Positions 10,925-15,084 of a stretch of 32,933 nt of DNA are shown here, piece by piece. Within the stretch, counting starts at the first letter, position 1. Every line of letters starts with the position of its first letter. Below the pieces are notes generated by a model that saw nothing but the letters and a program-made list of their open reading frames with translations, was not told the origin of the DNA and did not search any database. The DNA lies in the NCBI GenBank assembly GCA_947448135.1, contig CANFLZ010000026.1:1-32933 (forward strand). The letters are read 5' to 3'. The position numbers and the translations under genes are program-made. The stretch is from Flavobacteriales bacterium. GTDB lineage: Bacteria > Bacteroidota > Bacteroidia > Flavobacteriales_D > Sanyastnellaceae.

Positions 10925-12322
10925 ATGAAAAACAAAAATCAATTGGGATTGTGGGATAGCATTTTGCTTGGGGTTGGCTCTATGATTGGATCCGGAATTT
11001 TTATTGTGAGCGCTAATATGACAACACAAATATTCAGTGCCCCTTGGCTGATTGCACTTTGGATATTGACTGGGATTCTTACAGTTTTTGCAGCTTTGAG
11101 CTATGGCGAGCTTGCCGGCATGTTTCCAAAAGCTGGAGGTCAGTATGTTTACTTGAAGGAAGCCTATCATCCCATGATGGCATTTTTGTATGGCTGGAGC
11201 TTTTTTACAGTCATTCAAACTGGAACTATTGCAGCTGTAGCGGTGGCATTTAGCAAGTTCAGCGGCTACTTCTTCCCGATTTTCGAGATGACACCCAAAA
11301 ACGCAATAGCGGTTATGGGGCATGACGTATATCCTGCACAGCTTTTGGGTGTAGGCACTTTGGTGCTTTTGACTTATATCAACACACGGGGGGTTCAGGC
11401 AGGTAAATGGATACAAAGTATGTTCACTTCAACCAAATTGATTGCGCTTTTTGGGCTATTAATTTGCGGTTTCTTTTTGGGCTTTCACTCTGAAATATGG
11501 GAGTCCAATTGGTCCAGTGGTTGGTCTATACAGCAATGGAATTCCCTCACTCATCAAGCCATCCCAATGGATATGCACACTTTGATGGGAGCTATCGCCC
11601 TGGCTTTGGTTGGTTCTGTTTTCAGCAGTGACGCCTGGAACAGTATTACTTTCATCGCAGGTGAAATGCATCAACCAGAAAAGACCATTGGACGCGCGTT
11701 GTTCTATAGTACCTTCATTGTAACCTTGATTTATGTTGGCATGAACCTGATGTATTTAGGTTCTCTCTCACTTCAGAACATCGCAGAAGCGCCGCAAGAG
11801 CGAGTGGGTGTAGCTGCGGCCAATGCCATTTTCGGAGCGAATGGGACTTACATTATTGCAGCGTTGATAATGGTTTCTACGTTTGGTTGTAACAATGGGT
11901 TGATATTCAGCGGAGCGCGCGTGTATCAAACCATGTCAGAGGAAAAGCTATTTTTCCCAGCAGCAAAAAAACTCAACTCTTTCCAAGTTCCTGCATGGGC
12001 CCTATGGGCGCAATGCATTTGGGCGAGTGTACTTTGCTTGAGTGGGCAATATGGTCAATTGCTGAATTACGTTGTCTTCACGGTGATGCTCTTTTACATT
12101 TTGACCATTGCAGGAGTTATCCGACTTCGAGTTTCCAAGCCTGAGCTCCCAAGAACATACAAAACCCCCATGTATCCAATTCTTCCCATTCTTTACATCT
12201 GCATTGCCCTAGCATTCTGTATAGGGCTTTTGATCTATACACCCAATGATACTTGGCCAGGCTTAATCATTGTGGCGCTTGGGATTCCTGTTTACTATTT
12301 CTTTCGAAAAAAATTGGCATAA
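10925..12322 (+). CDS. APC-superfamily amino acid permease
   Basis: A 465-aa inner-membrane transporter of the amino acid-polyamine-organocation superfamily, with about 12-13 hydrophobic segments. The family's unwound TM1 motif is clear near the N-terminus: LLGVGSMIGSGIFIV (residues about 15-29). TM6-region sequence (ALVGSVFSSDAWNSITFIAGE) and EMHQPEKTIGRAL after it match the LAT/basic amino acid permease branch (PF13520). The last hydrophobic stretch ends in FFRKKLA, a cytoplasmic basic tail. The substrate is not predictable. The gene is monocistronic, divergent from dnaX, and closed by a strong terminator. Confidence 0.88.
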   Translation: MKNKNQLGLWDSILLGVGSMIGSGIFIVSANMTTQIFSAPWLIALWILTGILTVFAALSYGELAGMFPKAGGQYVYLKEAYHPMMAFLYGWSFFTVIQTGTIAAVAVAFSKFSGYFFPIFEMTPKNAIAVMGHDVYPAQLLGVGTLVLLTYINTRGVQAGKWIQSMFTSTKLIALFGLLICGFFLGFHSEIWESNWSSGWSIQQWNSLTHQAIPMDMHTLMGAIALALVGSVFSSDAWNSITFIAGEMHQPEKTIGRALFYSTFIVTLIYVGMNLMYLGSLSLQNIAEAPQERVGVAAANAIFGANGTYIIAALIMVSTFGCNNGLIFSGARVYQTMSEEKLFFPAAKKLNSFQVPAWALWAQCIWASVLCLSGQYGQLLNYVVFTVMLFYILTIAGVIRLRVSKPELPRTYKTPMYPILPILYICIALAFCIGLLIYTPNDTWPGLIIVALGIPVYYFFRKKLA

Positions 12323-12350
12323 AAAAAGGGAACCTAGGTTCCCTTTTTTG
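12321..12350. terminator. Bidirectional intrinsic terminator
   Basis: The palindrome GGGAACCTAGGTTCCC (12328-12343) is extended by an A7 run on the left and a T6 run on the right. It separates the convergent permease and the Lys/Ala-rich zinc-ribbon-type gene. Confidence 0.85.
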
Positions 12351-12365
12351 TTTCTCATAACAATA

Positions 12366-13985
12366 TTATTTCTTCAATTCTTTCTCCAACATTTGGTTGA
12401 TCTTTTCAGCTTGCTCATAGGCTAAAATTCCATCCACCAAAATTCTTCCACTGTGCTCATCGATGATCACTTTCTTGCGTGCAGCAACATCCATTTGCTT
12501 TTGAGGTGGGATGTGAATGAAAGATCCCGCAGAAGCCTCACGATCGATTGGCACAACTGCCAAGCCATTGTTGGCTCCTTTGCGAATGCGCTCATAAGCA
12601 TCCAACAAACGTTGATCAATTAATTTCTTTGCTTCAGCACTCTTTGCTTTTAGAATTTCTTCTTCGCGCTCTGTCTCGGCAACAATCTCTTGCAATTGCT
12701 TTTTCTTGAATTCTAAATCATTTGTGCGTGCTTCCAATTTTTGTTGACTTACCTCTAGGTTTGCCAATTTAGCCTCGTGACCCAACTCACCTTCACGAAT
12801 TTTCTTCTTGAACAATTGAATCTCTAACTCTTGGAATTCAATCTCCTTGTTCAAAGCTTCGTATTCACGATTGTTTTTTACTTTCTCTAAATTCTCTTTG
12901 TACTTCTTGATTTGCGTCTCAGCATCTTTGATACCTTGCTTCTTGGCAGCAACATCTTCCAAAGCAGCATCCACTTCGTCTTGAACTTTTCCAACTCGAA
13001 TGGTTAATCCAGCTACTTCGTTTTCCAAATCTTCTACTTCCAACGGCAATTCACCTCTTGTAGCATGAATTTTATCGATGCGCGAGTCAATCAATTGAAC
13101 GTCATACAATGCGCGCAATTTGTTCTCGATGGTAACGCCAGAGGCTTTGTTTTCGCCTTCTACAAAGGCAAATCGGTTGGTGCTTTTCATATCTTCAGAT
13201 TCCTTTTTTTCATTTTTTTCGATTCGTGCTACAGGCGCAAATTTCACAGGGGCCATGCCTTCAGGATTGACCACAAAAACAGGATTGGCTGTTGGCTTAT
13301 GATCCCGTTGGTATTCAATAATGCGCGGCTTTGGTCGATCAGACAAAGTTTCCTCTACGGCCGATTTGATTTCAGCCTTGGCCACTTTTACTTCTTTCTT
13401 TTTTGCTTCAGGCTTTGCTACAGGTACTTCTGATACCGCCTTAGGCTTGGTTGCTTCCACCTTGCTTTCAGCTGGCTTTGCCGAATTCTTTGCCACTGCT
13501 TTCTTCGACTCAACAGGAGTATCTTGCTTTTTGACTGGCGCACCCCCCTTTTTCACGGGAGCAGATTTCTTGGCTGGAGTAGCTTTTTTGGCCACTGGAA
13601 CACTCTTCGCAACTGGAGCTGCTTTAACAGCCTTTTTTGCTGGAACAGTTGTAACCGTTTTTTTTTCTACAGCCTTTTTTGCTGGAACAGTTGTAACCGT
13701 TTTTTTAGCTACAGCCTTTTTTGCTGGAGCCTTGGATGCTTTCTTTTCAGGCATGGCTTTCTTCACTATTTTTTTTGCCGGGGCCTTCAAATTCTTTGCT
13801 GCTGGCTTAATAGCGCTCTTTGCAACAGTTGCTTTATTCTTGCTAACCGGCTTTGCTTTCTCTTCTTTCTTTTTCTTTACCGGCGCAGATTTCTTTGCCT
13901 CTTTGACTGCTTTTTTGGCCACTACCTTTTTGGGTTGAGCGGCTTTCTTAACAGGCTTAGAGGACTTGGTCATCTTTTTCGCCAT
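12366..13985 (-). CDS. Zinc-ribbon-type (C4) coiled-coil protein with histone-H1-like Lys/Ala-rich N-terminus
   Basis: A 539-aa protein in two parts. Residues 1 to about 230 are extremely rich in Lys, Ala, Pro and Val (PAKKAVAKK-type repeats, like histone H1 or bacterial HU/H1-like tails), suggesting nucleic acid binding. Residues about 285-539 match the PF02591 family (HP0958/CT398 type): a long antiparallel coiled coil with KKYKENLEKVKNNREYEALN, then the C-terminal ribbon module NGLAVVPIDREASAGSFIHI and DEHSGRILVDG. In the family the ribbon is normally ACGGC...CxxCGRIL; here the cysteines are replaced (S, S, D, S), so no zinc site is possible. The family's role is unclear; Helicobacter HP0958 acts in flagellar assembly and RNA binding. 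The gene starts 1 nt after the Nif3 stop; this pairing is widespread. Confidence 0.8.
   Translation of the reverse strand: MAKKMTKSSKPVKKAAQPKKVVAKKAVKEAKKSAPVKKKKEEKAKPVSKNKATVAKSAIKPAAKNLKAPAKKIVKKAMPEKKASKAPAKKAVAKKTVTTVPAKKAVEKKTVTTVPAKKAVKAAPVAKSVPVAKKATPAKKSAPVKKGGAPVKKQDTPVESKKAVAKNSAKPAESKVEATKPKAVSEVPVAKPEAKKKEVKVAKAEIKSAVEETLSDRPKPRIIEYQRDHKPTANPVFVVNPEGMAPVKFAPVARIEKNEKKESEDMKSTNRFAFVEGENKASGVTIENKLRALYDVQLIDSRIDKIHATRGELPLEVEDLENEVAGLTIRVGKVQDEVDAALEDVAAKKQGIKDAETQIKKYKENLEKVKNNREYEALNKEIEFQELEIQLFKKKIREGELGHEAKLANLEVSQQKLEARTNDLEFKKKQLQEIVAETEREEEILKAKSAEAKKLIDQRLLDAYERIRKGANNGLAVVPIDREASAGSFIHIPPQKQMDVAARKKVIIDEHSGRILVDGILAYEQAEKINQMLEKELKK
13627..13738 (-). repeat. 42-bp tandem repeat inside the Lys/Ala-rich region
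   Basis: Copies begin at 13627, 13669 and 13711 (third partial), with a unit of 42 bp. It encodes a 14-residue unit, PAKKAVEKKTVTTV, and keeps the reading frame. Such repeats expand and shrink by replication slippage, so tail length may vary between strains. Confidence 0.85.
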
Positions 13986-13986
13986 T

Positions 13987-15084
13987 TCAGAAATATTGAA
14001 CAGGATTTGTTACAATCCCTGTTTTGTGGATGGCAAAAGTAGTAAAATTTTCTGTTAACCAATCACTTAGTAAGTCAATTACACAACTTTCAGATTCATA
14101 ATGTCCAATATCCATCACAATGATCTTGTTCTCATGATCAAAGAATCGATGGTATTTGAAATCCGAAGTAATGAATACTTGAGCTGCAGAAGCAATGGCT
14201 TTCTCCAACAGAAAATCGCCACTTCCTCCGCACCAAGCGACTTTCGACACAAGGGTATGTACCAATGGTGTATGTTTAATCACCTCAACTCCTAATTTTT
14301 CCTTGACATTTTTCATCCAAGATTGAATGTCTATGGGTTGGTTCAATTCTCCAATCATTCCTGAACCAATATCGGCCCTTTCATTGCTGAGTAAGATCCA
14401 TTCATGCGCTACCTCTTCATATCGATGGGCATTCACCATAGCTTGATGTACGGATGACCTGTTCCATTCAGGCACCATCACTTCTAATTTCATTTCATCC
14501 GAAATGAAACGTTCGCCAATTTTCCCTTCCACCGGATTGGCTCCAGGCATCGGGGTAAATGAACCCGTCCCCTCACTCAAAAAGCTACATTCTTCGTAAT
14601 TTCCGATGTGTCCAGCCCCAGCAGAAAATAGCGCTTGTTCCATTTTGTCCTTTTCTTTATTGGACACATAGACCACCAATTTGTAAATGGAATTGGACTT
14701 GGGCTGTAAAATGCTTCTTTTCTGAATGCCCAGTACATCTCCAATTTTTCCATTGACACCACTTGGAACACTATCCAAAGCTGTGTGCCAAGCCACAATT
14801 GCAATGTTGTTTTTGATGGCTTGAATGACGGTGCGTTCGACATAGGTGCGACCGGTCAATTTTTTCACTCCTGAAAATACAATCGGATGATGCGCCAAAA
14901 CAACATTGCACTTTTTTTGAATCGCCTCTTCAATAATGGGCTCAGTACAATCCAAACAACACAATACGCCCGTAATTTCTTGATCGGCATCACCAACGAT
15001 TAAACCCCCATTGTCATACGACTCTTGAAGACTCAATGGTGCCCAATGGTTGAGCTGGCGGATAAGATCTTTGACTGTATTCAT
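13987..15084 (-). CDS. Nif3-like dinuclear metal-centre protein (YbgI/DUF34 family)
   Basis: A 365-aa member of the Nif3/YbgI family, often named as GTP cyclohydrolase 1 type 2-like. Metal ligands are visible: H65-H66 in LAHHPIVFSG, H100 and D104 in WHTALD, and H328/E330 in DIGHYESE near the C-terminus. The length shows it is the long form with the PII-like insert (about residues 125-230) between the two halves of the core. Homologues form hexameric toroids with two metals per subunit; the reaction is unsettled. It is the first gene of a pair with the coiled-coil/zinc-ribbon-type gene and is divergent from lpxK. Confidence 0.9.
   Translation of the reverse strand: MNTVKDLIRQLNHWAPLSLQESYDNGGLIVGDADQEITGVLCCLDCTEPIIEEAIQKKCNVVLAHHPIVFSGVKKLTGRTYVERTVIQAIKNNIAIVAWHTALDSVPSGVNGKIGDVLGIQKRSILQPKSNSIYKLVVYVSNKEKDKMEQALFSAGAGHIGNYEECSFLSEGTGSFTPMPGANPVEGKIGERFISDEMKLEVMVPEWNRSSVHQAMVNAHRYEEVAHEWILLSNERADIGSGMIGELNQPIDIQSWMKNVKEKLGVEVIKHTPLVHTLVSKVAWCGGSGDFLLEKAIASAAQVFITSDFKYHRFFDHENKIIVMDIGHYESESCVIDLLSDWLTENFTTFAIHKTGIVTNPVQYF

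Follow-up and report, generated by a model that had tools for sequence, protein, structure and literature searches.

A DUF164 protein with ancient serine-type ligands, a later lysine-rich N-terminal arm and signals for a possible internal start

Examination of the window, by which we mean the whole 32,933-nt stretch of Flavobacteriales DNA that was analyzed, revealed a DUF164/COG1579 gene next to nif3 whose product carries a long, lysine-rich N-terminal extension and has no cysteines at its four zinc-ligand positions. On the tree of its relatives the ligands were lost first and the tail was gained later, once, in the window's family, and the synonymous codons around an internal methionine, Met266, are constrained. 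The explanation that we consider best, and in which we place about as much confidence as doubt, is that an ancient loss of the zinc site was followed by the addition of the arm, and that the one gene would now yield two products. From the sequences compared, the cysteines seem to be the ordinary part of this story and the arm the unusual part, and there is a testable hint of a second product; the part that seems to be new is the set of signals inside the gene around the internal Met.

DUF164 and Nif3 proteins are widespread and their genes are often neighbors. Binding of the arm to DNA or RNA, should it occur, would indicate where a DUF164 protein works, and a lineage with a polycation–DUF164 fusion that is apparently made with and without its arm would provide a direct handle on the joint function of the pair.

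Architecture of the gene and its product

The ORF (12366–13985, minus strand, as are all features below unless noted) encodes 539 aa from an ATG start. Its last 260 residues (280–539) form the DUF164/COG1579 core: PF02591 scored 28.9 bits against the protein by hmmscan, just under the cut-off of 29.1, and 33.5 bits, over that cut-off, against the same gene in the genome search, and the best PDB matches by sequence were CT398 (4ilo, E 1.7e-6) and HP0958 (3na7). An earlier note, made from the letters of the window, had suggested structure prediction as a check. An AlphaFold2 model of residues 216–539 (linker plus core) contains a coiled-coil hairpin (helices at aa 286–470, 12576–13130) preceding the ribbon, as in DUF164/COG1579, and Foldseek matched the model best to 4ilo (CT398), followed by 3na7, 5y06 and 5y05. 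Model confidence (pLDDT) was 83–96 in the coiled-coil blocks, 46–68 in part of the ribbon, and below 50 nearly throughout the linker. The hairpin and ribbon are thus common to the window protein and to FlgZ (HP0958), CdsZ (CT398) and MSMEG_4306, whereas the window protein differs from all three in having no zinc cysteines and in bearing a long lysine-rich N-terminal arm.

The arm occupies aa 1–214 (13344–13985) and consists of 31% K, 21% A and 9% P, with a net charge of +51 and no Arg; a 42-bp (14-aa) tandem repeat was detected inside it (13627–13728). The tail of about 230 residues that the earlier note had described is therefore real, although it spans about 214 aa and sits at the N-terminus rather than the C-terminus. 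Its label as histone-H1-like is apt for composition, the extension being a K/A/P-rich, low-complexity polycation as in H1-like nucleoid proteins, but does not extend to family membership. Among bacteria, histone H1-like lysine tails occur in AlgP, in Hc1/Hc2, and in mycobacterial HupB and TopA. Those tails are, like the window extension, K/A/P-rich disordered polycations; the one described here differs in being arginine-free, N-terminal and fused to DUF164, and no H1-like Pfam model matched the 539-aa protein at E values up to 1. Nucleic-acid binding by the tail is a fair guess from its charge.

A linker of 65 aa (aa 215–279, 13149–13343), predicted to be disordered and more conserved than the tail, joins the extension to the core, and AlphaFold2 does not predict that it packs back onto the core (pLDDT <50). 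The nif3/DUF34 gene (13987–15084; PF01784, E 2.4e-73) adjoins upstream in the same direction, an arrangement common to relatives. A palindromic, terminator-like hairpin (12322–12349, listed on the plus strand) lies between the DUF164 gene and a convergent permease gene. Two long antisense ORFs over the lysine-rich tail (13321–13938 and 13524–14042, plus strand; 205 and 172 aa) are probably mirror frames of repetitive codons and not genes. A PHROGs search returned no useful match.

Serine-type ligands are old in the order

The former zinc ribbon (12450–12533) has Ser485, Ser488, Asp509 and Ser512 at the four ligand positions, with the IPPQ and SGRILV motifs intact, just as the earlier note had read them. 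Because the CxxC...CxxC ligand set is absent, we do not file this protein as a C4 zinc ribbon. A DUF164 match was encoded in 57 of the 60 genomes searched, the window's own genome included. Every same-family gene with four readable positions has SSDS or STDS; five more families of this order, f3, f4, f6, f11 and f13, also have Ser-type residues, and CCCC occurs in six (f2, f5 and f7–f10). The pooled count covers 174 distinct genes with four readable positions, two further genes being incomplete and outside it: SSDS in 110, STDS in 11, ASDS in 3, ACDS and PSDS in 1 each, and CCCC in 48. The Asp and the last Ser are invariant in 126/126 distinct Cys-poor proteins. A survey of homologues for cysteines and tail had been proposed in the earlier note; it found the Ser type widespread and the tail in 8 of 21 genera, as detailed below.

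The available text of Pereira et al. 2011 describes SXXS-X20-DXXS as general in Flavobacteria (PMC3372290). These are the same four substitutions as in the window protein, and the Ser-type ligand half of our observation is already known, having been printed there in 2011; the tail, the linker motif and the proposed internal start are features of the window protein that the available text does not mention.

A 132-row tree calculated from just the coiled-coil columns has a single change of Cys type (branch support 90). When 20 genes from the class were added, the free tree had 6 Cys-type changes, of which the starred branches force 2, and a single Cys-poor clade was not rejected (p-AU 0.84); the class may have seen one Cys-loss event or several. 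Two genes from other families of the class have variant ligand sets, L201 (ACDS) and L204 (PSDS), and L201, with one Cys retained, is possibly an intermediate or a separate loss. We infer that the ribbon of the window protein probably no longer binds zinc and that hydrogen bonds among a fixed S-S-D-S set, passed down from deep in the order, probably hold it together instead.

Loss of RpoN was considered as a cause of Cys loss and is ruled out by the presence of an RpoN gene in 58/60 genomes, the window's own included, alongside both Cys types. The NCBIfam model for CdsZ scored 43.8 bits against the protein (cut-off 275), and the presence of an RpoN gene is compatible with a possible partnership of the FlgZ/CdsZ type.

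The arm was gained once in the window's family

In a survey of the window's family, 106 of 114 genomes had a DUF164 match, and long open frames (506–649 aa) were found in 8 of the 21 genera. Frames in the other 13 genera were no longer than 300 aa, bar one of 24,263 aa in genome G123, and within the tailed genera shorter frames came from contig-end genes only. The frame in G123, which is probably masked or N-filled sequence, contains an untailed DUF164 gene (G123:C6:72011–72775). With the 132-row tree rooted on the CCCC rows, the tail label changes once, at a clade of 27 rows (SH-aLRT 99) comprising 25 tailed genes plus L006 and L013, which look untailed and are cut at contig ends; if these two are scored as untailed, the number of changes is 3.

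Extensions are at most 30 aa in 99 of the 126 distinct Cys-poor proteins, at least 86 aa in 23, and cut in the remaining 4; among the distinct CCCC proteins, 9 of 48 have extensions of at least 86 aa. The 23 complete tailed genes have net charges of +22 to +80 and 0–2% R. Tail dN/dS was 0.11–0.30 in 8 of 9 pairs (the ninth was not computable), as compared with 0.01–0.10 in the linker, except for 0.25 in one very close pair, and 0.01–0.04 in the core (6 pairs computable). The tails are under purifying selection yet evolve fast. That the whole arrangement might be an artefact of assembly or gene calling, a scenario that the earlier note had named as its refutation, gains something from three genomes of the same genus (G003, G004 and G005) in which the gene is broken at contig ends. 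The window's contig is unbroken, however, and with the same architecture recurring in 25 tree rows, each from a different genome, and selection acting on the tail, we find an artefact scarcely credible.

When 27 tailed rows, including two that are cut, were aligned, most shared a linker motif, KPxANP followed by an (F/Y)xPIA-like block (aa 230–256, 13218–13298); it reads KPTANP and FAPVA here and is degenerate in L018. Elsewhere in the window's own genome the motif does not occur, being present at the DUF164 gene only. Searches of that genome with the tail and with the linker returned only the same gene, including one weak, stop-ridden match within it, although compositional filtering may hide others; on these results, sharing of the tail with other proteins of the genome was rejected. 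The Hc1 family had no match in the genome, and the frames that hold its two HU-type proteins, 90 and 102 aa in length, leave no room for a long tail. A limited literature search found no earlier description of a tailed DUF164 protein.

A separately tailed lineage retains the cysteines

We also examined a sample of 149 genomes from the class (144 with a match), in which frames longer than 333 aa occurred in 4 besides the window. Among twenty class stretches read, that of genome G200 encodes a CCCC protein with a K/A/P extension of 179 aa, and further CCCC proteins have extensions of 94, 57, 33 and 33 aa. In the family of G200, 23 of 24 genomes had a match, all 23 were CCCC, and 8 had extensions of 86–183 aa. 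Because the G200 gene falls among the CCCC rows of the class tree, apart from the window's clade, we take its tail as a separate gain, and the tail and the loss of zinc are therefore independent.

This result bears directly on the earlier proposal that loss of zinc and gain of a tail together marked a single change of role. Both features do meet in the window protein. They arose on different branches of the tree, however, tails are found on CCCC proteins, and most Ser-type proteins are untailed, so that we judge the proposal very improbable: zinc-ligand loss and tail gain are separate, unconnected events. The distribution separates the two and blocks what would have been a false inference. Within the G200 family, genes L216–L238 have graded N-terminal extensions of 29 to 183 aa on CCCC proteins and are a natural series for tail growth.

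Signals around an internal methionine

Met266 is encoded by an internal ATG (13188–13190), which we propose as a second start that would give a tail-less product of 274 aa. A Met is found 12–20 residues before the core in 25 of 26 tailed genes listed (L006, truncated immediately ahead of its Met, is outside this list). It is followed by K, A or S in six of the eight genera, and by R and I in the others; the Met of L018 does not align with that of the other tailed rows. The one gene without such a Met, L174 (G063), is a fast-evolving tailed copy with an end branch of 2.54 and 21 PAKK units, and it shares its genus with normal tailed copies.

The 36 nt upstream of the Met contain more A than expected from synonymous choice in 25/25 genes, covering all 8 genera. 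From −12 to +9 codons (22 genes) the mean A z over the 8 genera was 2.08, with every genus positive (0.71–3.63); none of 20,000 draws of random positions reached this mean, the tailed genes being one clade and the draws hence not independent evidence. The highest of 430 aligned offsets was a single codon off the Met, and beyond 21 codons the top value was 0.87. Windows ending 18–48 codons upstream have no comparable A excess, and the excess downstream only is weak or absent in three genera (g1, g19 and g20). The mRNA is also open here: the Met windows have a mean openness rank of 0.06 within the gene (25 genes), among its most open 6%. Their openness exceeds the synonymous mean in 21 of 25 genes, and in genus g20 it falls below that of synonymous shuffles in 4 of 7. 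The GC content of the 20 nt upstream is 0.35, as compared with 0.46 in the gene.

In 18 sequences from four genera, codon identity at unchanged residues was 1.46-fold the expected value both before and after the Met and above 1 in all four genera, and 0.76–1.08 at 26 or more codons away, where the expectation was drawn from codons beyond +25 and the core is near 1 by construction. When the expectation was drawn from the whole gene, the sliding maximum was 1.38 at +3 codons, and the best value more than 24 codons away was 1.21 at +25. The constrained, A-rich and unstructured codons extend from about −12 to +12 around Met266 (13152–13226).

We compared these signals with those of known starts. 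According to Baez et al., as cited in the available text of PMC8710568, start contexts in F. johnsoniae favor A at −3, −6 and −12/−13. The internal Met lacks this Flavobacterium-type context, with A at −3, −6 and −12 in 0.19, 0.00 and 0.25 (genus-weighted), whereas the upstream tail starts have A at −3 in 0.78. The general start signs of the phylum, as given in the portion of PMC3155529 that we could consult, are a local drop in GC and open mRNA, and both are found at the internal Met. The true starts of 14 untailed orthologues have no downstream synonymous conservation (1.0), and the downstream half of the Met266 peak thus exceeds what a plain start needs; another mRNA element may overlap the internal-start region.

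One could go further and suppose a single, tailed product, with the Met and its A-rich codons serving as some other conserved mRNA element, such as an autoregulatory or factor-binding site. The synonymous constraint, which reaches +25 codons (ratio 1.34) and so passes beyond that at real untailed starts, and the poor context at −3 and −6 both favor such an element. We nevertheless think it somewhat unlikely, given that the peak is centered on a Met that is kept amid variable neighbors and followed by K, A or S in most genera, and that we found no conserved RNA fold around Met266 and no Rfam match. A sigma-70-like promoter within the gene was also rejected: the search gave one weak match there, in the core, and the scanned region as a whole had 3 sites, as compared with 5.2 in shuffles.

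It is also conceivable, and to us unlikely, that there is one product and that the signal has no present function, being a by-product of a K/E/N-rich spacer together with a relic of the ancestral start. The spacer is indeed rich in residues with A-rich codons, and the signal comes from a single clade and, more weakly and unevenly, from a second lineage; against this, our tests measure synonymous choice given the residues, the excess is missing from the windows further upstream, and a relic should have decayed across the 8 genera.

Under the two-product explanation that we prefer, one clade extended its gene upstream, after the ligands had been lost, with a disordered lysine-rich arm, whose charge most likely anchors the coiled coil on DNA or RNA. 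The older start codon would apparently have been retained as the internal ATG: initiation at the upstream ATG would give the tailed protein, and initiation at the A-rich, unstructured Met266 the tail-less core, so that the same protein could be present in the cell both bound and free. The proposed use of two starts in one frame matches the mechanism of the bacterial N-terminal proteoform pairs presented in the accessible part of PMC11005335; relative to those pairs, the support here is comparative only.

Internal-start signals in the second lineage

In genus g97, which is CCCC and has its own tail, a Met at codon 103–109 has z values of 1.74–2.31 in 4/4 genomes and an openness rank of 0.10–0.15, whereas a later Met of these genes has z <0. 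Codon conservation peaks at 1.23, 10 codons before the Met, and is 1.17 at the Met itself. In L236 and L237 the highest A windows are centered mostly 11–23 codons before the Met, the signals of L238 and L228 are weaker, and L233 has no A excess; in L199 the top windows do not coincide with its Met, and L207 lacks one. Across these tests, from which L216 was left out, the internal-start signal is weaker and patchier than in the window's clade. We offer only as a tentative possibility that DUF164 genes of the class acquired lysine arms ahead of an older start at least twice, in one case on a zinc-less ribbon and in the other on a zinc-bearing one, with the internal start kept both times and the choice of initiation setting what share of the Nif3 neighbor is tethered to nucleic acid and what share is free.

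The nif3 neighborhood

The DUF164–Nif3 neighborhood is in print (in the sections available of PMC3372290 and PMC8469502), and a nif3 neighbor is reported for FlgZ in the former, as found here. The earlier note supposed that a changed protein was still coupled to Nif3; the adjacency stands, but it is independent of Cys type and tail. Of 176 distinct genes read, 165 have nif3 immediately upstream in the same orientation. These cover both Cys types, tailed and untailed, and among them are each of the 23 complete tailed genes of the Cys-poor type and 9/9 tailed CCCC genes. Of the remaining 11, four untailed genes of both Cys types (L038, L040, L202 and L210) have no nif3 match upstream in the stretch examined, 6 are cut at contig ends (L176 and L180 among them), and L203 has nif3 about 270 nt away. 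Where nif3 adjoins, the gap measures 2–29 nt, apart from gaps of 60 and 61 nt in two of the 165 genes.
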